Positions 28,482 through 55,520 of a stretch of DNA of 62,189 bases are shown here, piece after piece; positions within the stretch are counted from its first letter, which is position 1, and each line of letters opens with the position of its first letter. Below the pieces are notes generated by a model. The model saw nothing but the letters and a program-made list of their open reading frames with translations, ran no database searches and was not told where the DNA came from. Source of the stretch: Halocalculus aciditolerans (GTDB taxonomy: Archaea; Halobacteriota; Halobacteria; Halobacteriales; Halobacteriaceae); NCBI RefSeq assembly GCF_014647475.1, contig NZ_BMPG01000008.1, forward strand, positions 1 to 62,189, given 5' to 3'. A program made the position numbers and the translations under genes.

Positions 28482-28491
28482 ATACCCAGAT

Positions 28492-28532
28492 TAACCAACA
28501 TCACTAAGATTCCAGTGCCAGTGTTGGTTAAT
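28492..28532. promoter_or_regulatory. TTAACCAAC inverted repeat (copy 5)
   Basis: TTAACCAAC (28492-28500) and GTTGGTTAA (28524-28532), ending only 12 bases before ATG 28545. At this position it would overlap the promoter or leader of that gene. Confidence 0.7.
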
Positions 28533-34253: not shown

Positions 34254-34345
34254 TATTGTTTTGCCAATTCGCGGATTTTCTCTTTTTTCTTCCTGATGTT
34301 CACCGAATGCCACCTCGAAAATTCTTCTATAGAAATGTTTGTTCG
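34254..34345 (-). pseudogene. Remnant of the parA-partner gene 3' end (duplicate)
   Basis: About 90 bases match the 3' end of the gene at 36104-36544, including the stretch translated as HFYRxIFEVAFGEHQEE. It has a frameshifted or divergent tail and ends where a cdc6 fragment begins. Direct proof of a duplicated segment. Confidence 0.7.
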
Positions 34346-34501
34346 AGCCCCCACTTTGCCCGAGCACTCAGGATGGCGTACAACTGCTCGTCGTGGTACT
34401 TATCCATCCGGACGTGTTCACTCGAACGGAGCCGACTCACGAGGCGGTCGTCGACGCGGCTGAACAGCTCTTCTTCTTTGTTCGCGATACAGATGATCGA
34501 T
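34346..34501 (-). pseudogene. Internal fragment of an orc1/cdc6 gene
   Basis: It encodes IICIANKEEELFSRVDDRLV, then SRLRSSEHVRMDKYHDEQLY and ILSARAKWGL, nearly the same as initiator 2 residues ~150-206, but DNA identity is visibly below 90%. It therefore derives from a related gene rather than a fresh copy. It is bounded by the parA-partner remnant and by the TnpB element. Confidence 0.85.
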
Positions 34502-34504
34502 ACG

Positions 34505-35917
34505 CCGCCGACAGGCGACGGCTGAGCCGAATACTCCACTTTCACTCCGGTAGGCTGTTACTTATCAATCTCGCATACAATAGGCTATATGTGGCGAATC
34601 AGGTCACTCGAACCTATGTTGCGTCCATTCACAACCACCAACAGGTGTGTGAAGACCTCGATTCGCTCGGGTTTGCGGCCTCAAAACTTTGGAACGTCGC
34701 TCGGTGGACCTGCGACCGTATCTGGGACGAAACCGGCACGATACCAGACCACGGTGCTCTCAAAGCGTACCTCAAGAACAACGAACGCTACGCGGATTTG
34801 AACGCACAATCCAGTCAGGCAATTCTCGAAGAATTGGCTGAAGCGTTCGACTCGTGGTACACACTCCGTGGGAACGGTGACAAGAAGGCGAACCCGCCCG
34901 GCTACCGCAAGCACGGTGATGACCACCCACGCTCGACGGTCACGTTCAAAGAGGATGGGTTCAAGCACGACCCCGACCACGATCGGATTCGACTCTCGAA
35001 GGGGCAGAATCTGAAAGATGGGCGTCAAGACTTTATTCTCTGTGAGTACGCTGTTGACCCGGATGTGACCGTCCAGAACGTCCAGCAGGTCAGAGCTGTC
35101 TGGACCGGCACCGACTGGGAGTTGCATATTGTGTGTAACGTCGAACGAGACGACCCGGACCCACCCGGCGACCGAGTGGCCGGTATCGACCTCGGTATCT
35201 GCAACTTCGCCGCCGTTGCGGTTGGCGACGACGCTTTGCTGTATCCCGGTGGCGCACTCAAAGAGGATGATTACTACTTCCAGAAACAGCGGGCGAAGTG
35301 CGACGATAGTTCCTCCCGCAAAGCACAACGGCTGGACCGCAAGCGTGGCGAGCGCCGGACACACTTTTTCCACGCTGTCTCGAAGGACATAGTAGCCGAG
35401 TGCGCCGCCCGAAACGTCGGAACGATTGTCGTGGGCGATCTGACTGGTATCCGCGAGAACACAGACTGGGGTGACCACGGCAACCTCGATCTCCATGGGT
35501 GGGCGTTCGACAATTTTACGCAGATGCTGGAATACAAAGCGGCCGAATACGGCATCAGTGTTGAGCGCGTGGACGAACGTGGTACCTCCAAGTCCTGTGG
35601 TTCGTGCGGGACCATCGACGACAGCCAGCGTGTTGAACGTGGGCTGTACGTGTGTGACGAGTGTGGGCTGGTCGCTAATGCCGATGTGAACGGGGCCGAG
35701 AACATCCGACAGAAGGTACTCCCAAATCTCGCCTGTGACGGGGGAGATAGGGATAACGGCTGGATGGCACAGCCAGCGGTGCGCCTGTTCGACACATCGA
35801 CGGGGAGGATAGCCCCTCAAGAACAGGTGACCCGCGAACCATAATCTCCCAACGCTCGGGAAACCGCGCGGAGAACGGCGCGGAGGATGTCATACGGAGG
35901 TGAGTCAAATCAGACCA
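34505..35917 (+). mobile_element. Second TnpB (IS1341-like) element
   Basis: The element lies between the cdc6 fragment and the duplicated primase-gene tail. A stem-rich start (CGCCGACAGGCG, CGGCTGAGCCG near 34506-34533) and a CCGCGC/GCGCGG stem after the gene (35864-35883) look like IS605-group ends. Limits are set by where the flanking duplicated sequences resume. Confidence 0.6.
34591..35844 (+). CDS. tnpB: TnpB RNA-guided nuclease, intact
   Basis: The 417-residue protein starts at GTG 34591 (MANQVTRTYVASIHNHQQV), matching the usual haloarchaeal TnpB opening; the longer frame reads through the cdc6 fragment and is rejected. The RuvC triad is complete (AGIDLGICN, VVGDLTGIREN, ANADVNGAENIR), with a zinc finger CGSCG...CDECG. 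TnpB cuts DNA next to a TAM, guided by RNA from the element's own 3' end. There is no tnpA partner, so mobility would need one in trans. All catalytic residues appear present. Confidence 0.88.
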   Translation: MANQVTRTYVASIHNHQQVCEDLDSLGFAASKLWNVARWTCDRIWDETGTIPDHGALKAYLKNNERYADLNAQSSQAILEELAEAFDSWYTLRGNGDKKANPPGYRKHGDDHPRSTVTFKEDGFKHDPDHDRIRLSKGQNLKDGRQDFILCEYAVDPDVTVQNVQQVRAVWTGTDWELHIVCNVERDDPDPPGDRVAGIDLGICNFAAVAVGDDALLYPGGALKEDDYYFQKQRAKCDDSSSRKAQRLDRKRGERRTHFFHAVSKDIVAECAARNVGTIVVGDLTGIRENTDWGDHGNLDLHGWAFDNFTQMLEYKAAEYGISVERVDERGTSKSCGSCGTIDDSQRVERGLYVCDECGLVANADVNGAENIRQKVLPNLACDGGDRDNGWMAQPAVRLFDTSTGRIAPQEQVTREP

Positions 35918-40251: not shown

Positions 40252-40377
40252 AACTACATTATAGGTTTTGGGGACTCACTGACCGTCACAGTCTGTGAGA
40301 ACACCGACCAAAGATGTCGAAATACCGAGTCACAAAGTAAACTCCATGTCGATATATAAAATCTGTTAGCGCCGGCG

Positions 40378-42502
40378 GCCACGTTTTCGGGATCTCGATA
40401 GCTACAAACCACTAGCTCCGTGATACATTGAGCGGATTTGATGCACTGGTGCGGCGCAGTAACCGACTTATTGAGTAGGTAGAATCAGTCGTTGTCGTGA
40501 CTAATGTGACACACTGATAGCTCTCGCAGCCACGATTCCCGGACTGCAATGGATAGAGAAACCACCCCGACGGTGGATGACGACGCCCCCGCGCTGGCGG
40601 GGGCGATCGTCGAGCATGCCGGAGCGGTCTCTGAGACTGCTGATCACCTCTGGCGGGTTCTCGGCAGCGTCGTAATCCCTACAAACGGTCTGACCGACGC
40701 CCGCCAACAGGCGAAAGTCGCCAACGGTACTGAGCCGATGGCGCGTGTCTACCTCTATCAGACGATCTACGACCTCGCCCAAAGCGAGGTCGCAGATCGC
40801 TTGGAGGAACGGACAGCACTCCTAAAAGAACTGGGCTTGGAGACGGCACCGTCCCAACAGACCATCTCGTACGCGTGGGACCAGTTCAGCGAACAGACCG
40901 AATTGACGCTCACCGCTGCAGCCACGGGTATCGCGCAGGAAGCCGTTGACCACGGCGTCATCATGGAAGCACGCGTTCCGATCATCCCGGACGAAGATGA
41001 CATCGACGAAGACGGAGACGAACCGACGGTAACACGCGAGCACGTCCGAAAGCACGGGAGCAAGGTCGTCGAACTCGCCAGGCGGCACGCCTTCGGCGAG
41101 TTCGACTCTCACAGAGCTGAGAACACGGTCTACGAGGACGAACAGATCCTCGATCTGTTCTCCTCGGCGTGCCTCACGCAGGGAAGTGCGCATTCGGAGG
41201 GAGAAGCCGGCTGGTTTCTCGACGAGAACGACATCTGTGACGACTCGACGTTCCTACGAGTGATCAAGCAGTTCGCAATGCCGGCTGATCAGGAAGTACC
41301 TGTCTCACTCCAAGAGCAACAGATCGAGGATATCGTGGCGTTCACCGAGGTATTCCGCGAGCACCTCATGAACGCGTTCGATACCGCAACCGAGAACATC
41401 CTCCAGACGATCCGGTATGAAGATCCATTCGACGACCGCCACGTCGTGGCGGCCGTCGATTTCACGCGCGTTCCCTACCACGTCTGGCCGTGGATCGACA
41501 AGGACGAAGAGATCTCGAAGTCGGCGTATCCGCCGATGGTGAGCGGCTACGTGGACGACGGCGAACTGAAACACGGCTACACGTTCGCGACGATCACGAT
41601 CGTCGGGAACGCTGTCCCGATCATTCTGGGTATCGAACCAGTCAAAGAGCACTCAGAGTGGGAGCCAGCCGATGCACCAGCTGACTCGAAAGCAGACGTC
41701 GTTGGGCGTCTGCTTTCGAGAGCCCAGCAGTACGTCGATCTCGACGAAGTGCTGCTGGATCGCGGCTTCTACGCGAAGGAAGTTCGTGCTGAGATTGACG
41801 GTCGCGACTTGCTGTATACGATGCCGGTGCCGAAGTACGAGCCAGATTACCGGGCAATCAAGAAAATCAAGAGCAAAGACGGCGTTGACGCCGCTGTCAA
41901 CAACGACATCCCCGTCGGGATCGACGGCGATGTCGATCACACCGCCGCGTATCTGTACGTTCCAGCGACCAATGAGGACGCTGACGGGAACTACGCTGTG
42001 TTCGTCACCAACCGCGATCACGTCGCTCCCGACGAGATCGCTCACGTTACCAACAGCTACAGCCGCCGCTGGGACATCGAAAACCAGTACAAGTCGGTGA
42101 AAGCGTACCTCCCCAAGACCTCGTCGAAGGATTACCGCGTCCGATTGTTCAACTTCACGTTCGCCGCGTTACTGTACAACCTCTGGCGACTCACCGACTT
42201 TCTCGTGAAAGTCGGCATGGACCGTGAGATCAGATCGCCACCAGTCGTGACCGCCAGGACGTTCGTCCGGGCGGTCGGCCAGTCACTGCGAGAGGTCGGC
42301 TGATCGTTATCAACCCTTGTGCTCGCCTGCGGCAAGCCGCAGGACTCGCAGTCTAAGCGAGATATCGGCGGCTGTTGCCCACTCGAACTGTCCTGCCCAG
42401 CCAGCTAGGGATCAACGCATAGGACGTTCTCCCCGATCTCTCAGATGGTACCTAATTCGACCGTTATTCGTTTGTAGAGAGCCAATATCCCGAAAACGTG
42501 GC
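40378..42502 (+). mobile_element. 2125-bp IS4-type insertion sequence
   Basis: Perfect 16-base terminal repeats GCCACGTTTTCGGGAT (40378-40393) and its complement (42487-42502), with further similarity inward (CTACAAAC / GTTTGTAG). I see no target duplication in the flanks, so one side may have recombined. Confidence 0.8.
40549..42303 (+). CDS. IS4-superfamily transposase
   Basis: The 584-residue protein has a DDE fold: Asp in VAAVDFTRVPYH, Asp in EVLLDRGFYAKEV, and the IS4 Y-(2)-R-(3)-E-(6)-K signature YSRRWDIENQYKSVK. It is long for the family, with an N-terminal ~200-residue extension containing an acidic insert. ATG 40549 is preceded by 170 bases of element sequence. The gene is intact. 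It marks the border between plasmid backbone and the glycan cargo region, where base composition drops. Confidence 0.88.
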   Translation: MDRETTPTVDDDAPALAGAIVEHAGAVSETADHLWRVLGSVVIPTNGLTDARQQAKVANGTEPMARVYLYQTIYDLAQSEVADRLEERTALLKELGLETAPSQQTISYAWDQFSEQTELTLTAAATGIAQEAVDHGVIMEARVPIIPDEDDIDEDGDEPTVTREHVRKHGSKVVELARRHAFGEFDSHRAENTVYEDEQILDLFSSACLTQGSAHSEGEAGWFLDENDICDDSTFLRVIKQFAMPADQEVPVSLQEQQIEDIVAFTEVFREHLMNAFDTATENILQTIRYEDPFDDRHVVAAVDFTRVPYHVWPWIDKDEEISKSAYPPMVSGYVDDGELKHGYTFATITIVGNAVPIILGIEPVKEHSEWEPADAPADSKADVVGRLLSRAQQYVDLDEVLLDRGFYAKEVRAEIDGRDLLYTMPVPKYEPDYRAIKKIKSKDGVDAAVNNDIPVGIDGDVDHTAAYLYVPATNEDADGNYAVFVTNRDHVAPDEIAHVTNSYSRRWDIENQYKSVKAYLPKTSSKDYRVRLFNFTFAALLYNLWRLTDFLVKVGMDREIRSPPVVTARTFVRAVGQSLREVG

Positions 42503-42650
42503 ACGAAATCCCCCGATCCATCGCGATGAGTCGGGAAGTACTAGGTCCAGTATGTGAAATCCGGTAATCAAGGGGAGACGGGCCATCGTGGCCACTATTA
42601 ATATAATGACACTACATAAATATAATATATTAAAATATATTAAAATATAT
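42503..42650. other. AT-rich border of the cargo region
   Basis: Together with the IS end this makes a 347-base gene-free gap (42304-42650). The last ~60 bases are a nearly pure A/T run (TATTAAAATATATT units) at the 3' end of the first glycosyltransferase gene. It may act as a transcription end. Confidence 0.5.
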
Positions 42651-43820
42651 TTAATATTGTGTTAATAATTGTGTGGTTAGTCTCCTTATCGTTTTCTCGA
42701 ACTCGTCAGTCGAGTAGTCTGAAACTGTAGACTCAAGATCTGTTTTGAGCTCTTGCTGCAATCTCTTATTTTCCATTACGGTCGAAATCTTCTGAATAGC
42801 ATCATCAATGCTGTCATATTTTAATTTTGGTTCTTCGTTTATGATCTCAGTTTGTCCTCCCCCATTCGGAACAAATGGAATAACACCCCCTGCGACCATT
42901 TCTGCAACTGCAATTCCGAAGTGTTCGTTCTTCCGCCCATGTAACCCGTACCGGTGCTGTTCAATGAGGTCTACGAGGTTCTGGCGATCAACGTACCCTT
43001 CAAGACACACGTACTCGCGGGCCGCTGCCTTCTTAAGGACCCGTTCGTAGTATGACTGACTGCCGACTCCACCAATAATGTGGAGATGCGTCTTTATTCC
43101 GCGGGTCCGCAATCCGTCTATGATTTTGATCATTTCCAGCTGGCGCTTAGACTCGTGAACTGCACCCACGGTAACGAAGCCCGGTTCTCGGTTGTCTACG
43201 GTCGGATCAAAGTCTTCGACGTTCACCGGAGGATAAACAACCTCTACTGGGTGATCGTAGGTGTGCTGGATAATTTCCCGTGTCCAGTGGGAGTTCGTGA
43301 CTAGGGTTGTCGAGGAATCGAAATCTCCAGCACCGGCGACGGCTCTGCAGACCGTCCGGTAGAGCCGGTAGGGAACCGACGGGGCCCACGTTTCGTACGT
43401 TGAGTCGGCGCTCCCTGAGTAGGACGGAAAGTGGATATACTGCAACGATGGCCCGTCGACGAAAAACTCGTTTGCCGTACTCACTACGAGATCGTGATTT
43501 AGCTCCGATGAGCGCACTTGCCGTTGCACGAACGCGGATTTGAGTGCGTCCAGATGCAGATCTGTCTGGCCCCACTCATTAGATAGATCTATGATAGTTT
43601 CAATTACCGAAACAGGTAGTGATGATACGGATGTGACCGTTAGATCGCCTTCATCAACTGTAACACCGTTCTGCTGATTAAGTGACTCAAACTCAGGAGT
43701 ACTCCCAGTGTATAATGTGATTTCGTGATCGTTAATGAGTGCATTGAGTACGTGGAGCGTGACTGTTATACCCCCGCGCCCACGCGTGATATCAGGGTGG
43801 AATACTGCGATATCTGCCAT
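42651..43820 (-). CDS. GT4-family glycosyltransferase A
   Basis: The 389-residue protein has two Rossmann-like halves. N-terminal FHPDITRGRGGITVTLHVLNAL supplies the glycine loop. The C-terminal half has FVTVGAVHESKRQLEMIKI and EHFGIAVAEMVAGGVIPFVPNGGG, the E-x7-E-type donor-nucleotide motif of family GT4. It transfers a sugar from a nucleotide donor to a lipid-linked or surface glycan. It is clearly paralogous to the gene at 47576-48775 (same length class and same HGRKNEHFG / HGKEFEHFG region). AT-rich codon use sets it apart from the backbone. Confidence 0.88.
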   Translation of the reverse strand: MADIAVFHPDITRGRGGITVTLHVLNALINDHEITLYTGSTPEFESLNQQNGVTVDEGDLTVTSVSSLPVSVIETIIDLSNEWGQTDLHLDALKSAFVQRQVRSSELNHDLVVSTANEFFVDGPSLQYIHFPSYSGSADSTYETWAPSVPYRLYRTVCRAVAGAGDFDSSTTLVTNSHWTREIIQHTYDHPVEVVYPPVNVEDFDPTVDNREPGFVTVGAVHESKRQLEMIKIIDGLRTRGIKTHLHIIGGVGSQSYYERVLKKAAAREYVCLEGYVDRQNLVDLIEQHRYGLHGRKNEHFGIAVAEMVAGGVIPFVPNGGGQTEIINEEPKLKYDSIDDAIQKISTVMENKRLQQELKTDLESTVSDYSTDEFEKTIRRLTTQLLTQY

Positions 43821-43993
43821 CTATTGTCTCTAGGTTCCCCTTTATTGCTGATTACCTCTTCGGAAGCGTTCTACTCATCCGTAGGGTGTTACAGGTTATT
43901 TTCATACTTGATCGAGCTGGTCTTCTGAGGAAAAGACTGTCGTTTGGGTGAATCAGTGTCTTAGTCAAGTTATCAATGCCAAACCTATTGGCA

Positions 43994-44728
43994 TCAATTT
44001 AGTCTGGCTTTGATGACATATGCGTCATTTTTTTCTGCATATTCTATTCCGGACATGACTGGACGCTTCCATACAATATCGTATCCTTTATTTCTCAACA
44101 CATCTATTGTTTCAAAACTGGGGGACCCAAGAAATCCATGCGTCTCAACGATGATTGTTTCTGGTAATAGCTCTAATTGGTTAATTATTTTAGTTTCTGC
44201 ACCTTCCACATCCATCTCAATCACATCAAAATATGGAAGCGAGGATGGTGAAATAGTATTGTAATCACCTCTATTTCCTGGCGCTTCTTTAATATCACCA
44301 ATAGCAGAATGATGGATCGTAAAGTCTACGTCATTCAGAGACCGGGTTTCTTCGATAATCTCAACTCTTTCCCCACTTGCTTCATATACATGGACAGATT
44401 CACTATCTGATAATCGAGCAGCGATAACGGCTGTCACACCAAATCCTCCGCCTATAATTCCGACTGAGTCACCGACAAAAACAGATTCTTGGAGGCCCTT
44501 GATATTGGTTGATTTATACTCTGGCTTATGCGAAATTGTATTAAAAAGAACATAATCATCTATTTTTGGGCGATATCTCCCAACTAGTACCTCGTTATAT
44601 ATGGACGGTTCCCCGCGAGGGAATATTGGGCGGAAAAATCGTCGATAACAGTATCCGGGTATCTTTCGGGAAATATGGATGAGTCCTTTATCAGAGACAT
44701 CATGAATAACGTCGGTGATAGATACCAT
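43994..44728 (-). CDS. FkbM-family methyltransferase
   Basis: The 244-residue protein has a SAM-binding glycine motif near residue 90 (DSVGIIGGGFGVTAVIAARL). An acidic ribose-binding residue follows in VHVYEAS, and the FkbM-type core is FDVIEMDVEGAETKIINQLELLPETIIVETHG. Enzymes of this family O-methylate sugars in surface glycans and natural products. No membrane segment, so it acts in the cytoplasm before export. Low GC matches the cargo region. A 173-base gap separates it from glycosyltransferase A. Confidence 0.87.
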   Translation of the reverse strand: MVSITDVIHDVSDKGLIHISRKIPGYCYRRFFRPIFPRGEPSIYNEVLVGRYRPKIDDYVLFNTISHKPEYKSTNIKGLQESVFVGDSVGIIGGGFGVTAVIAARLSDSESVHVYEASGERVEIIEETRSLNDVDFTIHHSAIGDIKEAPGNRGDYNTISPSSLPYFDVIEMDVEGAETKIINQLELLPETIIVETHGFLGSPSFETIDVLRNKGYDIVWKRPVMSGIEYAEKNDAYVIKARLN

Positions 44729-44809
44729 TCTTATCGGTGTATTATAGAACCTGAGTAATAAACCACCGGAAAAACCTTAATGACGGTATATATATGTTCA
44801 TTATATAGC

Positions 44810-46183
44810 TCAACCAAAGAGAAGTTGCACAGCTGTCGAATGCATAGTAGCAGCACGAATCTTCTCGAGCGAGTGTCGCGTAGTCGACCGTTTCCACGCA
44901 GTTACTATCTTGTCTCTATACGGCATTGCATTATAAGTAAGAGTCCCGATAATGATACTGCCGTTGGACCAGTGTTGTAGGGTTGAAGCGACGCGAGAAT
45001 TCTCTACTGCCGCTTGGATCCATGACATCGTATATATCGTATCCATTGATCCTGTATTGAGTATTACCCCTGAAGCAATCAGTATCCAGAACGCGCGAGT
45101 AAGTCCTGGCGTAAAGCTTAGATTAACGAGAGATGCCGCTAATCCGGCGGCTATTGCCAGACTCAGCTGCCGGGATCGCGCAGTGTCATGCCAGCCCCGC
45201 CACAGTCCCAGCACTGTGACTCCAAGAACAGCGTAAAACCAGAACATCGCTGGCACACCGCCGATAACCCCAAGTAATAGGATGATATTGTGGGGGATAA
45301 ACTCGGAAAAATACTGTGTAACAGGTGGAGCAATCCCTGTAATTGGATTCTCGATGATAAGGTTGCTTGCTCGGGAGAATTGTCGCAAGCGGGAAATTGC
45401 ACTTCGCGAATTGATCTGGATAAGAGCGTACGATGCAAACACAACCAGACCAGTATTCAACACAAGAACGAGTATCGACGCCCCGGCATTTTTCCACCCA
45501 ATATCCCAGATACGACGCCCAAACACGCCAGCAGCCAGGACACTGAGTGCGACTATTAGTGCGACCCACGTCGCGCGCGACTGAATGAATACCGTAGCTG
45601 CGAGTACGGTCAAGATTGGTAGAAGGAGCCAATTTTGGTGTGTCCGGCGCCACTTAAGAATTACAAAAGGCAATGGGGCCAGAAAGTATGTACTGAGAAC
45701 TCCTGGTGAGACCAAAGGTAAACCAAGTGTACGTGGTAGCGGTGGCAACGGACCTCGTCCAACTACTGAGAAGACACGTCCTCCGAAGCTAGGGTCCACG
45801 AAGATCGCATACAGTGTCATGGCGGCCACCACAGTCCCCCCTGTGAATAAACCCCACAGAACATACTCTATATCCACAATGGAGCGAACAGAAAGTGAGA
45901 TGAAAATGATTAGCGACGTAAACGCGAGGAATTGCGGGACGTGCCAGCCCCCCGCGATAACGACCGTCCACCCCATGAACAGTAATAACAAAATTAGTAA
46001 GGGGCGCGTCCCAGCCGCAAACCACGCATCCGCATATACTAGTTGATACAGCACGATAAGACCGATTCCGACAGCAAGTGCGAAATCAGCAATAGAAATT
46101 GGCCCGATAATGCTATATGGATTGAAAATCTGAATACCAATGACTATCGCAACTATTACGCTCTGAGGTCTCCACCCTGACAT
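44810..46183 (-). CDS. O-antigen ligase/polymerase-like membrane protein
   Basis: The 457-residue protein has about ten to twelve hydrophobic segments. The motif SRATWVALIVAL is near residue 215, and a large external loop holds ENPITGIAPPVTQYFSEFIPHNIILLLGVIGG (near 285-315), the layout of the Wzy/WaaL ligase family. It probably polymerises glycan repeat units or attaches them on the outer face. Start ATG 46183 opens into a clear signal-anchor-like first helix. Flippase and glycosyltransferases nearby support the role. Confidence 0.8.
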   Translation of the reverse strand: MSGWRPQSVIVAIVIGIQIFNPYSIIGPISIADFALAVGIGLIVLYQLVYADAWFAAGTRPLLILLLLFMGWTVVIAGGWHVPQFLAFTSLIIFISLSVRSIVDIEYVLWGLFTGGTVVAAMTLYAIFVDPSFGGRVFSVVGRGPLPPLPRTLGLPLVSPGVLSTYFLAPLPFVILKWRRTHQNWLLLPILTVLAATVFIQSRATWVALIVALSVLAAGVFGRRIWDIGWKNAGASILVLVLNTGLVVFASYALIQINSRSAISRLRQFSRASNLIIENPITGIAPPVTQYFSEFIPHNIILLLGVIGGVPAMFWFYAVLGVTVLGLWRGWHDTARSRQLSLAIAAGLAASLVNLSFTPGLTRAFWILIASGVILNTGSMDTIYTMSWIQAAVENSRVASTLQHWSNGSIIIGTLTYNAMPYRDKIVTAWKRSTTRHSLEKIRAATMHSTAVQLLFG

Positions 46184-46510
46184 TATATTGCCATATATGA
46201 CTTCACTTTTAAAGATGTACTCGACTTACGGGCATTTCTTGATTTTGAATGTAGTGCTGTACTTCCAGAAGAGGTAACCCATAATTGTGATCCATATGAT
46301 ATCATCAACCTCTGGTGTTAATTATAAACCATCAGATATAGGGCCATTCTTGGTTCGAGCGTTAAATTCTAGATTGTCGGTAGCCACAGTACTCGTCTGT
46401 CTACATACTGAATTAGATTTTCGATATAGGATGCAGTGACGCAACGGGAAATCTGGTGGACTACATCAGTTACCGACGTTTCTAAGTAGATACTATCCAA
46501 AACACAACCG
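46184..46510. other. Gene-free gap between divergent cargo genes
   Basis: 327 AT-rich bases between the divergent genes at 46183 (-) and 46511 (+). It must hold both promoters; TATA-like stretches are plentiful. I see no repeat or RNA gene. Confidence 0.5.
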
Positions 46511-47545
46511 ATGACCGATGTCGCTATGCTGTACAGTGGTGAAGAGCCTCATCCCGTCCATAGAGGATTTGCTGAGTCGGTCGATGCGGACATAATCGGC
46601 GTCCCACAACTTACTCCAAGCGCTGTATTCCGTGTAGCCCTGAATAGATCGAAATTTCTCTATCCACAATATGACGTACTTATCACGGAAGGAACTGGGG
46701 CGCTTGAAGCCGGGATTGCAAACAAACTATCCAACGGAACCACGTTACTCTTTCTCGCAGGCGGGCACGGTATCCACCTCCTTAATGCTGAGAGCGATAT
46801 GGACGTTAATTCGGCCACTAAGTCGGCGGTTGTAAATGTGTTTCCGGAAGTGATTCGATCGGTGTTAGCACGTTGCGTTGACGGCGTGATTGCGGTCTCC
46901 GACCTGGCGGCCGAAATCACACACAGGATGGTCGGTGCAGAGACACCGACCAGAATTGTTCACCCGTATATCGATGCCGGTCTCTACGATCAATTGATCG
47001 AAACGGACCCTGACCTCTCCGTTAACGAGGCGGTGACAGTGTCTCAGGCGCATCACTACAAGGGGACTGATATCCTTGTGGCAGCATGGGGACGGGTCCT
47101 TGATGACGTCTCTGATGCGACGCTCCATATTGTCGGTGCTGGCCATCCAGAAGCGTATGGAAATAAAGACGGAATCGAGGTACACGGCTACGTCGAAAAC
47201 CTCACGGACGTTTTTCGTCGCTGTGCGCTCTACGTCCAGCCATCGCGGATAGACACATTTCCGGTTAGTACATTGGAAGCTATGGCCACGGGCCTTCCAA
47301 CAGCGGTCACTAATAAGACTGGTACACTCTCGGAGGTACAGAAAGTAGATCCGTCGCTCATCATGGCACCGAATCCATCGACTGTCGGTCAAACCATCAG
47401 TAAGTACTTTAGGACATCTGTATCGCGGCGTCGAACTCTCTCAGAGCAGTTCCGCGACATTGGGTCACGGTTTGCGGAGACAAGTCAGCGTCAAGAGTTC
47501 AAACGGAACTACGAAGAGATTCTCGAAGAAATACATTCGGAGTAA
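46511..47545 (+). CDS. GT4-family glycosyltransferase B
   Basis: In this 344-residue protein the C-terminal half has AVTVSQAHHYKGTDILVAAWGRVLDDVSDATLHIVGAG and LYVQPSRIDTFPVSTLEAMATGLPTAVTNKTG, the acceptor-loop and E-x7-E-like motifs of GT4 enzymes. The N-terminal Rossmann half is less conserved (EGTGALEAGIANKLSNGTTLLFLAGGHG). It is a different lineage from transferases A and C. It is the only + strand transferase in the left part of the cargo, and the next gene converges on it. Donor sugar unknown. Confidence 0.83.
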   Translation: MTDVAMLYSGEEPHPVHRGFAESVDADIIGVPQLTPSAVFRVALNRSKFLYPQYDVLITEGTGALEAGIANKLSNGTTLLFLAGGHGIHLLNAESDMDVNSATKSAVVNVFPEVIRSVLARCVDGVIAVSDLAAEITHRMVGAETPTRIVHPYIDAGLYDQLIETDPDLSVNEAVTVSQAHHYKGTDILVAAWGRVLDDVSDATLHIVGAGHPEAYGNKDGIEVHGYVENLTDVFRRCALYVQPSRIDTFPVSTLEAMATGLPTAVTNKTGTLSEVQKVDPSLIMAPNPSTVGQTISKYFRTSVSRRRTLSEQFRDIGSRFAETSQRQEFKRNYEEILEEIHSE

Positions 47546-47575
47546 GACGAGGCGAGTCCATTAAACGTCCTCGGT

Positions 47576-48775
47576 TTATTCGGTTTGAGAGAGTTCCTCA
47601 GTGACGAGTGACCGTATTTGTTGCTGGAATCGCTCTCTAGTATACCTAGTGGAGCTTTCGCGCAGGAGCTGTCTGATCGAGTCCTGCTCATCGGGACTTT
47701 CCATCACAGTCTTTATTTTTTCGACGGCACTGCTAACTTCACGATAGAGCACTCGCTCATCATTCTTCACGATGTCTATCTGCCCCCCACTGTTAGGAAC
47801 AAACGGAATTACACCACCAGCCACCATCTCCGCGACGACCATCCCGAAGTGTTCGAACTCCTTCCCGTGAATGCCGTACTTATGTTGCTGGATTGCATCG
47901 ACCAGTTCTTCCCTGCTACACTCCCCTTCAATATAGATATATTCGCGTGATTGAACCTTCCGCTTGATGTCGTCAGCGTAAGATGTGTTTCTAACAGGGC
48001 CAATCAGGTGGAGGTGCACATCGTCGTTCCATTCGTGAAGTTCGTCGACTATTTCGATTGTCCTCGAAACTTGTTTCCCTGGGCAAATACGCCCAATCGT
48101 AACGAACCCTTCTTCTCGTTGCTCCCATTCGGTATCAGTAAAATCCTGATCATTAATTGGAGGGTACACTATATCCGGAGAAGTATCGTAGATACGTTCG
48201 ACGATGTCAGCTGTCCACTGTGAGTTGACGAGCAGTCGGTCTTCGCTGATACGTTGAGGGGAGTACCCAGCGAGAAGTCGACATACAGCGTCGTATGGAC
48301 GATACATCGAAGAGTCACTTCCACGATACCCAGGGATCGCATCCCGACCATCCGTAGCGATCAGCCCCCTTCTCGGGAAATGGATGTACTGGATGGCCCG
48401 GGACCCCAAGCTAATCTCGCCGCTCGTCGAAACCATGAGATCGTATGACTGTTGGATATCTCTTACATAACGGTAGAAACAGGTATTGCGGAGTGCCGAC
48501 AGCTCGATTGTACTGGAAACAGATGATATACTCCGAAAGATAGATAGTGGTAAATCGTCGTATAGGTCAATCTCAACATCTTGGACGTTAGTTCCGTAAA
48601 AATTATTGAGATCATCAAAATCAGGTGATGATATCGTAATTAGCGTTACATCATACTGATCTTGAAGTGCTTCTAGAATGTGCATACAGACGGATTCGCT
48701 GCCTCCTTTCATCATTAAGTCTGGATGGACGACCGCAACACTTGTCTGATTGGAATGGGTTATATTTGGGGTCAT
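47576..48775 (-). CDS. GT4-family glycosyltransferase C
   Basis: The 399-residue protein is a paralogue of transferase A: VVHPDLMMKGGSESVCMHILEAL, IQYIHFPRRGL, NSQWTADIVERIY, GFVTIGRICPGKQVSRTIEI and EHFGMVVAEMVAGGVIPFVPNSGG align position by position. The two probably add chemically similar sugars in sequence. The start at 48775 gives a 45-base divergent spacer to the hydrolase gene at 48821, so both promoters must overlap there. Cargo-type base composition. Confidence 0.87.
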   Translation of the reverse strand: MTPNITHSNQTSVAVVHPDLMMKGGSESVCMHILEALQDQYDVTLITISSPDFDDLNNFYGTNVQDVEIDLYDDLPLSIFRSISSVSSTIELSALRNTCFYRYVRDIQQSYDLMVSTSGEISLGSRAIQYIHFPRRGLIATDGRDAIPGYRGSDSSMYRPYDAVCRLLAGYSPQRISEDRLLVNSQWTADIVERIYDTSPDIVYPPINDQDFTDTEWEQREEGFVTIGRICPGKQVSRTIEIVDELHEWNDDVHLHLIGPVRNTSYADDIKRKVQSREYIYIEGECSREELVDAIQQHKYGIHGKEFEHFGMVVAEMVAGGVIPFVPNSGGQIDIVKNDERVLYREVSSAVEKIKTVMESPDEQDSIRQLLRESSTRYTRERFQQQIRSLVTEELSQTE

Positions 48776-48820
48776 AATTTTCCGAGAGCTTTATACGGCA
48801 AACCAGGCAATCCAAGCTTA

Positions 48821-50176
48821 ATGGATAGTGAACAACCGCCGAGTATTGCTCTTGTGGTTCTCGATACCCTTCGGAAAGACTACTTTGATAAATTCTTTGA
48901 TTGGTTGCCTGGAATACGTTTTGAGAATGCATACTCGACATCCCAGTGGACAATACCGGCACACGCGTCGATTTTCACCGGTCAGTATCCACTGGAAGTG
49001 GGCGTTCACTCGAAACACTTGTACTTCGATTGTCCTGAACCTGCGCTCGCCGAGACGCTAGCTGACCACGAGTACACTACTCGGGGATTTAGCGCAAACC
49101 CAAATCTTTCGGGACATTTTGGATTCGACCGCGGATTTGATACATTCGAGTCGCCGCTTGACCTCATGCATCTGAACTCGGATCGAATCATTGATTGGAA
49201 GTCGTTCGTCGACGAGTCTTCACACTCTGGCCTTTCGATGTACGCACACGGAGTACTGAAGTGCATCTTCGGGGATTGTAACACAGTAATGTCGTTCCGA
49301 TCGGGACTTCAGCAAGTCTTGAGCGACAACACATACACGAATCCAGGAGGATCCGAAGAGGTACAGAACTGGCTCACGCGCCAAACCTTCGATGACCCCT
49401 CGTTTCTGTTTTTGAATCTCATGGAGGCACATGAGCCGTACTGGGCACCCGATGAGTACATGTCCGTTGAAACACCGAATTTGACGCACTCTATCGGCGA
49501 CCTTGTCTTCGAGGACGAGCCAAACCAAACCAAAACGAATCCGGAACGGATCGTTACCGCATACGAGTGCTGCGCTCGTTACCTCTCCGATCAGTACCGA
49601 GACCTTTTTGAACAGCTCTCTGCGATGTTCGATTACGTTATTACGGTCGCCGACCATGGAGAATTACTCGGGGAACATGATGCTTGGAATCACGAGCACG
49701 GTATTTATCCAGAACTTACGCACGTCCCATTAGTTGTGTCTGGTGAGGGACTGAAAGGGAAGCGCGACGATGTCGTGAGTCTAGTTGATATTCATACAAC
49801 TGTTCTAAGATTGGCTGGGATTGACAATAATCAGGCCACTCAGGGACAAAATCTCTTCGACACAAATTCGGAACGGGACATTCTCACTCAGTACACTGGG
49901 CTCACTCCTTGGAGCGAAGACCGTCTTCGAGAAAGCGATACTTCAGATGACATTTTGGAGAAGTATGATGAAGAACTGTATGGGATCGCCACCCCTGACG
50001 GTTCCTACGCCTACCAGACAGTGGACAAAGCTGATGTAATTGGTGAGGGGATCGATGAGCCGGAAGAGCGTATTCAGCGTCTTGTCAACGACCTCACGGT
50101 GCGAAATGTCGAGTCTCAGGACGATGCAATTCCTGACGACGTTCGTCAGCAGCTAGAAGACTTGGGATACGCTTGA
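48821..50176 (+). CDS. Sulfatase/alkaline-phosphatase-superfamily hydrolase or phosphoglycosyl-modifying enzyme
   Basis: The protein has 451 residues from ATG 48821 (MDSEQPPSIALVVLDTLRKDYFDK); the 48725 start would overlap the divergent gene. The metal-binding opening hVhDxhRxD and the segment TSQWTIPAHASIFTGQYP fit sulfatase-like enzymes. The second metal site is VADHGELLGEHDAWNHEHGIYPELTHVPLVVSG. Catalytic Ser/Thr replaces the formylglycine cysteine of true sulfatases (QWTIPAH), so it may transfer or remove phosphate-type groups on glycans. It lies directly upstream of the flippase. Confidence 0.82.
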   Translation: MDSEQPPSIALVVLDTLRKDYFDKFFDWLPGIRFENAYSTSQWTIPAHASIFTGQYPLEVGVHSKHLYFDCPEPALAETLADHEYTTRGFSANPNLSGHFGFDRGFDTFESPLDLMHLNSDRIIDWKSFVDESSHSGLSMYAHGVLKCIFGDCNTVMSFRSGLQQVLSDNTYTNPGGSEEVQNWLTRQTFDDPSFLFLNLMEAHEPYWAPDEYMSVETPNLTHSIGDLVFEDEPNQTKTNPERIVTAYECCARYLSDQYRDLFEQLSAMFDYVITVADHGELLGEHDAWNHEHGIYPELTHVPLVVSGEGLKGKRDDVVSLVDIHTTVLRLAGIDNNQATQGQNLFDTNSERDILTQYTGLTPWSEDRLRESDTSDDILEKYDEELYGIATPDGSYAYQTVDKADVIGEGIDEPEERIQRLVNDLTVRNVESQDDAIPDDVRQQLEDLGYA

Positions 50177-50206
50177 GTTTGATTTGAGCTATCAGTATTA
50201 GCATTA

Positions 50207-51694
50207 ATGAGCGAGGAAGATTTATCGCCGCTCGATACCGTTCTCCGGGGCAGTGGCATCGTGTTTGTCGGCATCAGCTTCGAGATGCTGATCTCGTTTG
50301 GCGCGAAACTACTGATTGCAAGATATCTGGGTAGGGTGGACTATGGTGAGGTTTCGCTGGGGATCACGATTATGACGTTGATGGCAACGCTCTCCCTTAT
50401 TGGACTTAATAGTGGCGTTGGCCGGTACATACCCCGATTTGACTCCGATATTGACCGTGGTAGCATCGTCAGGTCAGCGCTTGAAGTTGCGCTTCCGATA
50501 TCCGTGCTCAGTACAGCAGTTATTATCTTTTTATCAAGGCCCCTTGCTACAGTACTGTTCGACAATCCGCAGGCGAGACAACTTATTTGGATCTTTGCGG
50601 CTATAATTCCCCTGGTTGTCCTGTTCCGGCTCTCGATCGCGGTTATCCAAGGCCAGCAGCGTTCGGTGCCAAAAGTGGTACTGGAGAATATTGGTCTCCC
50701 AGGGATCAGATTCAGTCTAATTGCGGTCGCCGTTTTCTTCGGACTCGGAATACAGGCATTTGCTAGTGCCTATTTTTTATCGTACCTAGGGGTTGCTATC
50801 GCTGGGACGTACTACATCTTCACTCGGGTATCGATACCATCGATGGACAAGTACACACCAAGACGTCGAGACCTGGTCTCGTTTTCGGCGCCACTGATGA
50901 TCACGGTGACGATCACCGCTATTCTATCGAACATAGATACTCTCCTATTAGGATACTTCTCGAGTACGGGCGCGGTAGGCATCTACAACGTCGTTTTTCC
51001 GCTCACTGTCGGGATTACTGTGTTCCTCGTCTCATTTCGATTCATCTCAATGCCCCAGATATCCGAACTCCACGCAGAGGGGAGAGACGAAGATATTCGT
51101 CGGGTATATGAGCTGACTAATAAGTGGGTTATGGCTCTCTCTGCCCCGGTCCTTTTTGTATTTTTATTCTACCCCGCTCAGGTTATTGGCCTCACTTTTG
51201 GCGCCGAATACACGGAGGGAGCAGCTGCGTTATCAATCCTATCGCTTGGATTTTTCACTCACGCCATCGCCGGCCTCAACGGGGCGACGCTGACGTCCAT
51301 TGGGAAGACTAGAACGATTATGCGAATTAACATTCTTGTGGGTATCTGTAATGTGATTTTGAACGTGCTATTTATACCTCGGTACTCGTTCGTTGGTGCA
51401 GCTATTGCTACGGCGGGTTCGTACGCTTTGATGAACGTCTTGTACTCTTGGCAATTGTATCGTAGTACAGGAATATCGCCGATAAATGCCCACACTATCC
51501 GAATTATTGTGATTATTAGCGCTCTATTTTCAGTCTTTGTTGTTTTTCAGAATACTGTTATCACGACTACTGGACCTGCTATATTTTTAGGTGCTGTGCT
51601 ACTGGTAATCTATATTGGTCTGCTGCTCACGGTTCTGATATCAGAACCGGAGGAGAAATTGTTTCTCCATACAGCCTTTGAGTATGTTATGTAG
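50207..51694 (+). CDS. Oligosaccharide flippase (Wzx-like)
   Basis: The 495-residue protein has about fourteen hydrophobic segments and the MATE/Wzx-type opening SGIVFVGISFEMLISFGAKLLIARYLGRVDYGEVSLGITIM. Repeat-related segments are in residues ~220-420. It flips lipid-linked oligosaccharides across the membrane for completion outside. It starts 30 bases after the hydrolase stop and runs into the next frame, so the three + genes 48821-52706 probably form one operon. Confidence 0.88.
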   Translation: MSEEDLSPLDTVLRGSGIVFVGISFEMLISFGAKLLIARYLGRVDYGEVSLGITIMTLMATLSLIGLNSGVGRYIPRFDSDIDRGSIVRSALEVALPISVLSTAVIIFLSRPLATVLFDNPQARQLIWIFAAIIPLVVLFRLSIAVIQGQQRSVPKVVLENIGLPGIRFSLIAVAVFFGLGIQAFASAYFLSYLGVAIAGTYYIFTRVSIPSMDKYTPRRRDLVSFSAPLMITVTITAILSNIDTLLLGYFSSTGAVGIYNVVFPLTVGITVFLVSFRFISMPQISELHAEGRDEDIRRVYELTNKWVMALSAPVLFVFLFYPAQVIGLTFGAEYTEGAAALSILSLGFFTHAIAGLNGATLTSIGKTRTIMRINILVGICNVILNVLFIPRYSFVGAAIATAGSYALMNVLYSWQLYRSTGISPINAHTIRIIVIISALFSVFVVFQNTVITTTGPAIFLGAVLLVIYIGLLLTVLISEPEEKLFLHTAFEYVM

Positions 51695-51767
51695 AGACAC
51701 TCTCCCAAAATGTCTTCCCGAAACCGATTTGTATAACACGCAGTATCTTCGCTACGTACAGATACCG

Positions 51768-52706
51768 ATGGGATTAACAGAACTATTTACTAGAAATCTC
51801 AACAGAGTAAAACGGGGAGAGATTCAAGAGCTCCTATTCGAGGGCGGATATGAACTATACTCTGCCTCATGGCGACTTGGTAAGTTACTTCCAATTGATG
51901 AAACTAACATTTTCGACCGTGACTGGGATGTCCTAGTTATTCTTGATGGATGTCGAGTTGATCTTATGCATGAAATCAAGAGCGAGTACGAGTTTCTCAG
52001 TGATATAAACGAAATCACATCCACTGGAAGTATGTCTCTTGAATGGATGGAGAACACCTTCTCTAATGCTCCGAGCCAAGAGTTGGCTTCGACGGCTTAT
52101 GTAACTTCAAACCTATTTAGTAGGGATGTCTGCGACGATGAGATGTTCTCCTGTTTGGAAGAAGTGTGGAGATATGGATGGGATGACGAGTTGAATACAA
52201 TTCCTGCTAGACCGGTAACAGACAAAGCAATTGAGGTGATGCGTTCGGATTCACCGGAGCGTATGATAGTCCATTATATGCAACCACATCATCCGTTTAT
52301 TGGCGAGAACGAATCTCTACCTTCATTTAATCCTGATCCCTTTGGACGAGATAACAATGGAATAGCTGAAGCCCGAACTGCCTGGGATGCCCTTCGCCGT
52401 GGAGAACTTACCTATGAGGCCGTCTGGCAGGCGTACAAGGATAACCTCCGCTATGTCCTTGAAGATGTCTCAATCCTCCGAGAGAATATCAGAGCGGACA
52501 AACTAGCCATAACAGCTGATCACGGGAATGCAGTTGGTGAGTGGGGCATCTATGATCATCCAATTGGGTTCCCACATCCAGCAGTCAAGAACGTTCCTTG
52601 GGTCGAGACAACCGCAAAAGATGAGCATACGTACGAGCCGTCCATAACAGAACAGACTAGCAGTAGATCAATTGATGAACGGCTATCTGCACTCGGTTAT
52701 AAATAA
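51768..52706 (+). CDS. Second alkaline-phosphatase-superfamily enzyme, diverged
   Basis: The 312-residue product starts at ATG 51768 (MGLTELFTRNLNRV); the earlier in-frame ATG overlaps the flippase gene. The core begins DRDWDVLVILDGCRVDLMHEI. The fold continues with TSTGSMSLEWMENTFS, IVHYMQPHHPFIGE, KLAITADHGNAVGEWGIYDHP and HPAVKNVPWVE. These match haloarchaeal sulfatase-like proteins next to glycosyltransferases. It is shorter than its neighbour at 48821 and lacks the C-terminal extension. Confidence 0.78.
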   Translation: MGLTELFTRNLNRVKRGEIQELLFEGGYELYSASWRLGKLLPIDETNIFDRDWDVLVILDGCRVDLMHEIKSEYEFLSDINEITSTGSMSLEWMENTFSNAPSQELASTAYVTSNLFSRDVCDDEMFSCLEEVWRYGWDDELNTIPARPVTDKAIEVMRSDSPERMIVHYMQPHHPFIGENESLPSFNPDPFGRDNNGIAEARTAWDALRRGELTYEAVWQAYKDNLRYVLEDVSILRENIRADKLAITADHGNAVGEWGIYDHPIGFPHPAVKNVPWVETTAKDEHTYEPSITEQTSSRSIDERLSALGYK

Positions 52707-52715
52707 TATCGTACA

Positions 52716-53522
52716 TCACCGGGCGAATATTTGATAAATTCCTTCGCGGATTCGTGGTGGTAGTAGACGTGGCGGGATCCGAAGACAGAGGTGCTGTATA
52801 GTGTCACGTCGAGATGAAATACCGAGTTCTCGAAGTTCCTGTGCCATCCGGAACTCTGCCTGTGCGTAGTCTAGACCACCTCGCCGGTCAACGAGGTCAT
52901 CAACCTGTGCCCGAACAAGAGTTTTATCGAGATTCCGGAACCGAAGTCCAGCGGAAAGACACCGTGCCCATAGGTCCCAGTCTTCCATCATTGGGTAGTC
53001 ACGATATCCACCTGCGCTGAGAACAGCTTCGCGGTCAAACATCGTGGTTGGATGGTTTAATGGACAGCGCCATGACATCCACTCTGCAATCTCGTCGTGT
53101 GTTATTGGTACTTCGCGGATTCGTTCCGGATGTTCAGGATCATCATGAAATTCCGCGAGGTGTGACCCAACGACGTCTGCTTTGGTGTCTGTGAGGACAG
53201 TTTGCTGATCGGCGAATCGTTCAGGTTCAGCAATGTCGTCTGCATCCATTCGTGCGACAAACGGCTCTGAACACCTCTTCAGTCCAGCTTGAAGTACACC
53301 TCCCAACCCTGAGGCGTCAGGAACGTGTTCGTGGCGACTAACTGAATGGGTATTGACTAAGTCCTCAATAGCCGTCTCAACATCTTCCGTGAGCGATTGG
53401 TTCGTCACAAGGACGATCTCTGATGGCGATGCCGTTTGTTCGATGATGCTTTTATGTGCACGACGCAAGTCAGAAGTATCGCTTGTGGCAGCTACAGGCA
53501 GTAATACGGCGATCCCACTCAT
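52716..53522 (-). CDS. GT2-family glycosyltransferase
   Basis: In this 268-residue protein the N-terminal AVLLPVAATSDTSDLRRAHKSIIEQTASPSEIVLVTN and the metal motif ARMDADDIAEPERFADQ are the GT-A signature. MEDWDLWARCLSAG supplies the ED acceptor-side motif. It is convergent with the hydrolase gene, 9 bases apart. It has no membrane anchor. It is higher in GC than genes to its left. Confidence 0.88.
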   Translation of the reverse strand: MSGIAVLLPVAATSDTSDLRRAHKSIIEQTASPSEIVLVTNQSLTEDVETAIEDLVNTHSVSRHEHVPDASGLGGVLQAGLKRCSEPFVARMDADDIAEPERFADQQTVLTDTKADVVGSHLAEFHDDPEHPERIREVPITHDEIAEWMSWRCPLNHPTTMFDREAVLSAGGYRDYPMMEDWDLWARCLSAGLRFRNLDKTLVRAQVDDLVDRRGGLDYAQAEFRMAQELRELGISSRRDTIQHLCLRIPPRLLPPRIREGIYQIFAR

Positions 53523-54249
53523 CAGCTTAGACTCCAGTTCATCTCAGTGAGTACGTTAGTCTGCATTATTGGTTTGCACTCAGTACCGATGGATAAACAA
53601 ACCGGTGATTGACTGTGGCTTTATTACTAATGATTCGGCGCTCACCGAGATCAGATCTTTGGCTTTGTTTGAAAGCATATTTGGAAAGCTGTAAAACCCC
53701 CTCAAGCGAAGCGTTGTGATATGATTAAAAAAGCCATTAAGACGTACAAGTACCAGGGGCTGAGGGGTCTATTAACAAGAGGAAGGACTAAAACACAGCA
53801 GAAGATTCGCCAAGCAATTGCTGGCTTTCCACCAGTCGATAAGATATCACGGCATTATTCTGAGCAGGAACTAGCAAAACTGAGAACCGCTGAAAACCGG
53901 AGAGAATTAGACAGTGTTCTCTCCACACTTAACCAATACTCTGGATATGGCCTTTACCGGACTCTCAAACCGCTCCAAAACCCTGTTGAGCATCGTCAAC
54001 TTATTCAGGCAGTAGACGAGCATCAGCCGAGAACGATTTTGGAGATTGGCACTGCGAATGGTGGTACGCTTTACCCATGGTGTCGATATATTGATGGCGT
54101 CGAACGCATAATTGCGCTTGATATCGACTTCTGGGGCCGTGACCCGGATTTCTACACATCATCTTTCGTTGAGGATATAGACCGTGAGATTCACACATAC
54201 ACTGGCGAGTCACAATCAGTGGAGATGCGTAAGCAGATTATCTCTGATC

Positions 54250-55175
54250 GGCTCTGTAGTTTCGGTACACTGGGGTCGATTTCACGGATATCGGACGCTC
54301 CGGCGAAGGTTATAGACGGTGGCTTTCAGCAGCATTTCGCGGAACTCGAGCCACCAACTTCGCGCACGCACGGCAGCGCCGAGCGTGCGCTTGATCGACG
54401 AGAAGACGGTTTCTGACATAGAGCGCTGATGGTACCGATCACCGTCCATACGGGCGTTATGGGCGTGATCGAGTGAGTTCATAATCCTGTGCTTGATCAG
54501 CGGTCTGATGCCGTTTTCACGGAGTTCGTCGCGGAAGGCTTTCGCGTCGTAGCCGCGATCAGCAGCGAGGCTCCGCAGGTCGCCGGCGTTGCGCCGGGCG
54601 ACCTGCGGACCGATCTTCGCGTCGTGTTTCTTGCTCGTTGTGGAGTGGATGTCGGTGATGTACAGCGTTTCGACATCCACGAGGGCAGTGACTTTCAGCG
54701 CTCGAACGCGGTAGTTCGTGCGGTTGGCGTAATGGCGGCTGGGCTGGTCACGGTCGAAGCCAGTCGAATCGATGGCGGCGTGGCCGGTGCGTTTCTCGGC
54801 TGATGCGCCGAGAAACGCACGCCACGTCGCAGTGGGAATCCGTTCAAACCACGTGCGGAGCACGGTGTAGTGCGGAAGTCTGGTGAGGCCGATCTCATCA
54901 AGGACGCCGGGCATTTCCGAGAGCAAATCGACTGCGACACGGTAGGATTTGCCCAGTTCGATGCGGAGTGCGTGCACGGTGAGCATCGCCCATTCGGCGA
55001 ACCCGCCTCCCCCTTCGGGGTCGGCGGGTTCGTCCGGATTAGCGACAACTGATTTAGCCTTCGCCACCGTAACACGCGTGAAGAGACGGAATTCCGAAGT
55101 CACAACACTCTGTCTCTTCGCTTTCTACCGAGATAACGCAGTCGTCGCTGTTGCGTCTAGCGAAACTACAGAGCC
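54250..55175 (-). mobile_element. 926-bp IS5-type insertion sequence
   Basis: Perfect 15-base terminal repeats GGCTCTGTAGTTTCG (54250-54264) and its complement (55161-55175). They are flanked by an 8-base target duplication CTCTGATC (54242-54249 and 55176-55183). It is inserted in the methyltransferase gene. Confidence 0.93.
54282..55103 (-). CDS. IS5-family (ISH1-like) transposase
   Basis: The 273-residue protein has a DDE core: GHAAIDSTGFDRDQPS, DLRSLAADRGYDAKAFRDEL and RSMSETVFSSIKRTLG with the catalytic Glu. Size and the 8-base duplication match the ISH1-related group. The frame is intact and both ends are perfect, so it is probably recent and active. Confidence 0.9.
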   Translation of the reverse strand: MTSEFRLFTRVTVAKAKSVVANPDEPADPEGGGGFAEWAMLTVHALRIELGKSYRVAVDLLSEMPGVLDEIGLTRLPHYTVLRTWFERIPTATWRAFLGASAEKRTGHAAIDSTGFDRDQPSRHYANRTNYRVRALKVTALVDVETLYITDIHSTTSKKHDAKIGPQVARRNAGDLRSLAADRGYDAKAFRDELRENGIRPLIKHRIMNSLDHAHNARMDGDRYHQRSMSETVFSSIKRTLGAAVRARSWWLEFREMLLKATVYNLRRSVRYP

Positions 55176-55481
55176 CTCTGATCTTAATCCAACGATTGAC
55201 TTTCTTTTCATCGACGGGGACCACTCATATACTGGTGTGAAGCGGGACTTTGAGCTGTATTCGGATATGGTCCCATCTGGCGGCCTTATCGCGTTTCATG
55301 ATATTCGAGGAGATCATGAGCGGTGTGGCGTCGGCACGCTGTGGAATGAGCTAAAAGACAAGTATTCGACGACTGAATTCCACGATTCTGACGGTCCCGA
55401 AAACTGGGGCGGGGTCGGTATACTAAAAAAAGTCAGTTAGGTCAAATAGTTATCAAACAAGTATACCAAGACTCATCAACC

Positions 55482-55520
55482 TTAACCAACAGCCGGTATA
55501 ATCCCTCTATTGTTGGTTAA
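55482..55520. promoter_or_regulatory. TTAACCAAC inverted repeat (copy 6)
   Basis: TTAACCAAC (55482-55490) and GTTGGTTAA (55512-55520), the shortest spacer of the family, with GTATAAT in between. It lies just upstream of the whole secretion operon, which would place conjugation genes under the same control as the leading genes. Confidence 0.7.

Follow-up and report, generated by a model that had tools for sequence, protein, structure and literature searches.

Surface glycans of haloarchaea differ even between closely related strains or species, and an influence on both virus sensitivity and mating is ascribed to them. In bacteria, the Wzx/Wzy-dependent O-antigen and capsule clusters, which are AT-rich and exchangeable, consist of a flippase, a Wzy/WaaL-type protein, several glycosyltransferases and decorating enzymes. 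These features, with a putative Wzy/WaaL-type protein, recur in a block of genes located at positions 42651-55440 of contig NZ_BMPG01000008.1 (C8) from Halocalculus aciditolerans. The whole contig of 62,189 nucleotides, hereafter called the window, represents one entire haloarchaeal plasmid from a genome of 3.38 Mb in 27 contigs. With a probability of roughly 60%, the block is read here as a Wzx/Wzy-type surface-glycan cassette that sits in the slot for exchangeable cargo of a haloarchaeal plasmid of the conjugation type; we infer the glycan product, surface location and phenotype of the cassette from the sequence.

The alternative (low-salt) clusters agl5-agl15 of Haloferax are located on the chromosome. 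Similarly to the present block, they are hypervariable surface-glycan clusters, possibly derived from plasmids, but they are tied to pilA2/agl6 and to N-glycosylation of the AglB type, and the available part of their description mentions no adjoining secretion operon (PMC5867893). The haloarchaeal mobile plasmid pR1SE-DL18 from Halorubrum lacusprofundi also carries glycosyltransferases but, according to the available part of the source, just two such genes, and it spreads by plasmid vesicles (PMC10384203). Other vesicle-spread haloarchaeal plasmids have been described in a paper whose available text contains glycosyl terms once, in the reference list (PMC10818511). The Haloprofundus plasmids of about 50 kb (pMHR1-4, NZ_CP083670, NZ_CP083665) contain sizeable glycan cassettes, among whose genes are those for a flippase and for alkaline-phosphatase-type enzymes, but lack mating-pair typing, possess their own sugar-nucleotide genes and encode a flippase only about 31-33% identical to that of the window, relatives of which occur in 39 plasmid records (E ≤ 1e-15). 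Plasmid-borne glycan cassettes as a kind are already known from such deposited haloarchaeal plasmids, from pR1SE-DL18 and from the suggestion made for Haloferax. The open-licence literature searched yielded no account of a slot in which different glycan cassettes recurrently occur next to a conserved secretion module.

Glycan genes in the cargo slot of a plasmid

Gene families were assigned with Pfam and NCBIfam profiles against the curated cut-offs. The block comprises nine intact glycan-type genes, together with a tenth (Methyltransf_24) split by an IS5-type insertion sequence (IS). The intact set consists of three GT4-type and one GT2-type glycosyltransferases, all above cut-off, a Wzx-type flippase, a Wzy/WaaL-type membrane protein, an FkbM-like methyltransferase and two alkaline-phosphatase-superfamily enzymes. 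The families listed by an earlier first-pass annotation of the same DNA were recovered by Pfam, that of the Wzy-like protein below its cut-off, except that one of its two methyltransferases is broken by the IS5-type element, which that annotation did not mention. It had also described the block as AT-richer than the backbone, and this difference is clearly borne out, so that its claim withstands the compositional check that it had itself set: coding GC amounts to 0.482 in the cassette versus 0.595 in 20 backbone coding sequences, GC at third codon positions (GC3) to 0.482 versus 0.704, and the codon-usage distance between them (1.35) was reached by none of 2000 label permutations, the largest of which gave 0.97.

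The block occupies a variable cargo slot (40308-55477), comprised between an integrase-side and a secretion-side region of homology. On the left, the window ceases to match NZ_CP126160 and contig G091:C21 at 40307, beside the integrase. On the right, homology to 11 plasmids starts at 55477-55507, directly after the stop of the methyltransferase gene, at a palindrome. The borders given by the first-pass annotation, an insertion sequence on the left and the secretion operon on the right, stand. In all 11 relatives (H1-H11, fetched from 14 records with a match of at least 90%), the exonuclease VII genes xseA-xseB adjoin the secretion module, a place taken in the window by the glycan cassette. Beyond xseA-xseB, the cargo of these relatives consists of copper/heavy-metal genes (seven plasmids), McrC/DUF1156-type defence genes (two) or potassium and proton transport genes (two), and on the left side of the slot of NZ_CP126160, defence-type genes including BREX pglX follow. 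Since the slot content differs among relatives, the cassette of the window fills a variable cargo position.

The secretion module was detected in 95 of 391 genomes of the class (E ≤ 1e-60), and at least four glycan-type genes occur in 6 of the 53 selected flanks on its cargo side (L104, L105, L131, L132, L137 and L109), the first five with support from tblastn, Pfam and hidden Markov models (HMMs). In L104, a module 94% identical to that of the window lies beside genes for a flippase, an FkbM-like protein, a DUF2206 protein, a GT2, a sulfatase-family protein, a GT4, an oxidoreductase and a second GT4. In L105 (G091:C21), which is the clearest case, counterparts of the integrase (89%) and of the gene next to it (92%) precede the locus's own GT4 genes, a flippase, a GT4, a Wzy_C protein and finally the secretion module (82%). 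This locus, from a host of another family, shares with the window the slot, the integrase, the neighbour gene, the type of secretion module and the presence of flippase, Wzy_C and GT4 genes. However, its glycan genes are unlike those of the window, with a single close GT4 (42%); FkbM and phosphatase-type genes were not found there by tblastn, and a transposase-like stretch lies ahead of the secretion module. L105 also differs by a chimeric GT2/GT4 open reading frame (ORF) of 232 residues (L105:8358-9053), the first half of which is GT2 and the second half the C-terminal part of a GT4, apparently a deletion fusion of two adjacent genes. From the alternative glycan cassettes found in the slot of relatives, it follows that plasmids of this family repeatedly carry surface-glycan cassettes as cargo that can be exchanged. 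The earlier view of the block as surface-glycan cargo of a plasmid is well supported, and the comparison with relatives strengthens it.

The window is a circular plasmid of about 62,188 bp. The contig ends (1 and 62189) overlap by one base inside the VirB4 gene, 81/81 bases match pCBA1232-02 of Halorubrum trapanicum across the joint, and the VirB4-type frame continues through it, which together indicate a circle of approximately 62.19 kb. The genes of the plasmid include two of the Orc1/Cdc6 type, ParA and a VirB6/TrbL-like protein (PF19590, 462.6 bits). The mating-pair components of a conjugative plasmid are represented by the VirB4-type ATPase ORF spanning the joint, annotated as VirB4 in relatives, and by the TrbL_3/VirB6-like channel protein. 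Two sequenced plasmids have secretion modules that share 98.9% identity with the one in the window. No relaxase was recognised among the window proteins scanned, which covered part of the ORFs, so that self-transfer is no more than inferred; related plasmids in PLSDB are typed MPF_T yet "non-mobilizable".

Encoded proteins and insertion sequences

The genes of the block sit on both strands and, for this reason, do not form a single operon. On the minus strand, a GT4-type glycosyltransferase (42651-43820; PF00534, 52.5 bits) is a paralogue of that encoded at 47576-48775 (minus; PF00534, 53.7 bits), with which it shares a repeat (47766-47879). It is followed by the FkbM-like methyltransferase (43994-44728, minus), with a GC3 of just 0.31, which reaches 23.2 bits with PF05050 (cut-off 22.7) and stays barely below the cut-off of TIGR01444, and by the putative glycan polymerase/ligase, a multi-pass membrane protein of the Wzy/WaaL type (44810-46183, minus). 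The remaining GT4 is encoded at 46511-47545 (plus; PF13692, 71.8 bits). The Wzx/MurJ-type flippase (50207-51694, plus) scores 91.1 bits with PF01943 (Polysacc_synt), for a cut-off of 28.2, and the GT2-type glycosyltransferase (52716-53522, minus) 55.1 bits with PF00535.

Of the two "hydrolases" previously announced, both enzymes are present, but they belong to the alkaline-phosphatase superfamily. The first (48725-50176, plus) matches Pfam Sulfatase (PF00884, 83 bits); its first 51 bases also cover the beginning of the adjacent minus-strand gene, so that its true start may lie downstream. Formylglycine-dependent sulfatases are defined by a Cys or Ser in the signature C/S-x-P-x-R. In the alignment with choline sulfatase 6fny, the stretch T-I-P-A-H of the present protein faces C-A-P-A-R, with Thr in place of Cys/Ser. 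As the formylglycine residue is absent, "sulfatase" should not be taken as the function of this protein, which may rather perform phosphate-ester chemistry, either transfer or removal, than act on sulfate. The second enzyme (51678-52706, plus), devoid of a Pfam match of its own, shows a weak match to the hydrolase profile NF038075; Pfam Sulfatase does recognise its homologues in L131 and L132, and relatives occur in 262/292 genomes of the class (E ≤ 1e-10). In genome G004, which has no match to the secretion module of the window at E ≤ 1e-60, a homologue of the GT2 (73%) lies beside a homologue of this second enzyme (78%) in the same convergent order. Pieces of the cassette also move singly, as in the case of this GT2/second-phosphatase pair.

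The Methyltransf_24 gene is split into a 5' part (53721-54249, plus) and a 3' part (55176-55440, plus; PF13578, 50.2 bits), both of which correspond to a single unbroken gene in L131 (11431-12282; Pfam Methyltransf_24/CmcI). The interrupting IS5-type element (54250-55175, minus; 926 bp; transposase 54282-55103) possesses perfect 15-bp terminal repeats (54250-54264 and 55161-55175) and is flanked on both sides by a perfect 8-bp target duplication, CTCTGATC. The left frame ends with ...QIISD and the right frame begins with SDLNP..., so that, given the perfect duplication and a frame that resumes past the element, the break looks recent and single. The element occurs as a single full copy in the genome, and the nearest plasmid copy, from Halorubrum lacusprofundi, is 92% identical; the insertion looks recent and would have occurred elsewhere, or without a donor copy being left here. 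The left insertion sequence (40378-42502, plus), recognised by profiles and repeat search, is ISH3-like, with a DDE_Tnp_1 transposase (40549-42303) and imperfect terminal repeats starting with GCCACGTTTTCGGGAT; no target duplication was seen at this element. When the cassette DNA was compared with plasmid records, all 19 matches fell within the IS5-type element or within 42311-42500, the right end of the left insertion sequence.

Weighing of the possible explanations

Several observations weigh against a Wzx/Wzy-type cassette, and some of them concern the Wzy-like protein. Its match to Wzy_C (28.4 bits) remains under the curated cut-off of 31.7, its predicted model is weak (predicted local distance difference test, pLDDT, 57; predicted TM-score, pTM, 0.53), and a Foldseek search with this model, in which WaaL ranked first, reached no hit at E ≤ 0.001. 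The protein found nothing among PDB sequences at E ≤ 1 and nothing by tblastn in 72,556 plasmids, and it occurs in 4 of 292 genomes of the class, including its own, at E ≤ 1e-10. On the other hand, the best fold match of the low-confidence model is the WaaL O-antigen ligase 7tpg (Z 10.5, 254 residues aligned, root-mean-square deviation 4.8 Å), the next matches, near Z 7, being FtsW/RodA proteins and some unrelated chains. In addition, nine columns are invariant (6/6 sequences) in an alignment with five relatives of 18-26% identity, R265, H298 and G309 among them. Owing to the low pLDDT and pTM, the fold match is support and not proof. The polymerase/ligase-like assignment proposed by the first-pass annotation is supported by fold comparison and invariant residues, and is weak by sequence.

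Other adverse points are that one gene of the cassette is broken and that the Pfam group of the flippase also includes other lipid-linked exporters; relatives of this flippase were sought among genome contigs and none was confirmed. The stretches seen of the 11 nearest relatives contain no annotated glycan cassette (0/11). The 60 flanks followed were chosen, from all secretion-module matches, for an intact module start, the denominator of 53 results from the exclusion of 7/60 flanks shorter than 10 kb, and L094 and L097 are near-duplicates. Five of the six positive flanks, those confirmed by Pfam, supplied part of the sequences for constructing the HMMs, L109 is positive by HMM alone, and L107, with two weak matches, was not counted. 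Finally, when the cassette proteins were compared with Pfam and NCBIfam, neither AglB, nor an initiating transferase, nor sugar-nucleotide genes were recognised in the block. With these missing and one gene disrupted, the cassette cannot be termed "complete", as had been supposed. It differs from the bacterial Wzx/Wzy clusters by the lack of a recognised initiating phosphoglycosyltransferase and of sugar-nucleotide genes, and by the archaeal lipid carrier to be expected. The flippase is of the PST type, but because the initiating transferase and sugar-nucleotide genes were not recognised in the cluster, the cassette is called Wzx/Wzy-like rather than a full member. It can work only as an add-on to the host machinery; elsewhere than on this contig, the genome encodes three more Polysacc_synt flippases.

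The oligosaccharide of the cassette might instead be attached by the host AglB to the S-layer protein, as a diversification of the N-glycans, the Wzy-like protein having some other role. AglB pathways are not known to need a Wzy/WaaL-like protein, which counts against such a scheme. The cassette has no AglB, a PF02516 domain occurring in the genome only at C2:382063 and C4:45568; these two host AglB (STT3) homologues, each with a flippase within 7 kb, could nevertheless perform the transfer. The strongly variable alternative glycosylation clusters of Haloferax, which lie near orc1/cdc6 and may stem from plasmids according to the part of PMC5867893 available, also agree with this explanation. 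The presence of the Wzy/WaaL-like protein, with Wzy_C proteins also contained in each of the comparable L105 and L132 cassettes, makes it rather unlikely.

The block could also be decaying passenger DNA, i.e., an acquired AT-rich glycan island now nonfunctional in this host, in agreement with the IS5 insertion, the left insertion sequence without target duplication, the foreign composition and the mixed orientation of the genes. Full-length open frames persist, however, in 9/10 genes, and the perfect duplication and resumed frame around the IS5-type element point to a recent and single break, so that decay appears rather improbable. An insertion sequence near each end of the block evokes a composite transposon that brought it into the plasmid. 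This origin was rejected as extremely improbable: the two elements differ in family (ISH3-like on the left, IS5-type on the right), the right one resides inside the last gene instead of outside, and the slot borders are the same as those found against relatives with quite different cargo.

In a Wzx/Wzy-type cassette of this kind, the host would have to provide the initiating step and the sugar nucleotides, and would also perform any transfer of the glycan to protein. The three GT4 and the GT2 would extend a lipid-linked sugar supplied by host enzymes, the flippase would carry it outward, and the WaaL/Wzy-like protein would either polymerise the chain or couple it with an acceptor. Decoration or remodelling of the glycan would fall to the methyltransferase(s) and to both alkaline-phosphatase-superfamily enzymes, one decorating methyltransferase having presumably been eliminated in this copy by the IS5-type insertion. 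Transfer of the plasmid could plausibly alter the surface of the recipient and, through it, the adsorption of viruses and mating. The effects described in the literature do not all point the same way. In Haloferax volcanii, according to the available part of PMC5496957, mating is lowered by drastic changes of the N-glycans, and loss of the last glycan sugar has no significant effect on it. In Halorubrum lacusprofundi, the available part of PMC10384203 reports no significant effect of an aglB deletion on the tailed virus HRTV-DL1. A broader proposal, to be regarded as tentative and unlikely, is that a dedicated slot moves alternative glycan cassettes between haloarchaeal families, acquisition converting the surface type (an archaeal seroconversion) and gating later virus infection and mating, and insertion or loss of insertion sequences tuning single decorations. 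A plasmid family in which glycan cassettes, metal-resistance genes and defence genes alternate at a single position offers a concrete vehicle for surface-glycan variation and renders the question testable.

Other features of the plasmid and the genome

Site-specific recombination by the integrase adjacent to the slot is unsupported, no repeat common to both slot borders having been found. A motif beside the integrase has a single occurrence in the window and is present in no more than 2/146 loci, both with the same integrase, and is therefore more likely the integrase promoter. A pattern search located the palindrome TTAACCAACA-N19-TGTTGGTTAA at the right border of the slot (55482-55520), upstream of the secretion operon. 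With a spacer of N19..22, it is present in six copies on the plasmid, the others being at 7805-7846, 14315-14355, 23759-23799, 25256-25297 and 28491-28531; two of the six have one mismatch in one arm. The single-arm pattern, with at most one mismatch, gives 13 matches versus 1.2 expected, and the palindrome is also present in many related plasmids (53/142 loci). It looks like a candidate operator for a regulator acting across the plasmid, or like some other binding site distributed over it.

Two further ORFs of the window (22300-23367 and 34339-35844) resemble TnpB-type (RNA-guided nuclease) proteins by eye. Elsewhere in the genome, a second secretion module, 78% identical, occurs on a contig of 118.6 kb (G000:C6:111969-114880), and on a contig of 237 kb, the AglB homologue and flippase of C4:45568-57000 (L033, L034) stand beside an AT-rich stretch (GC 0.42-0.47 versus at least 0.6 around), which is probably another glycan island. 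In the related plasmid pMHR1-1, a CBASS oligonucleotide cyclase is annotated downstream of the secretion module (L043:38149-38714).

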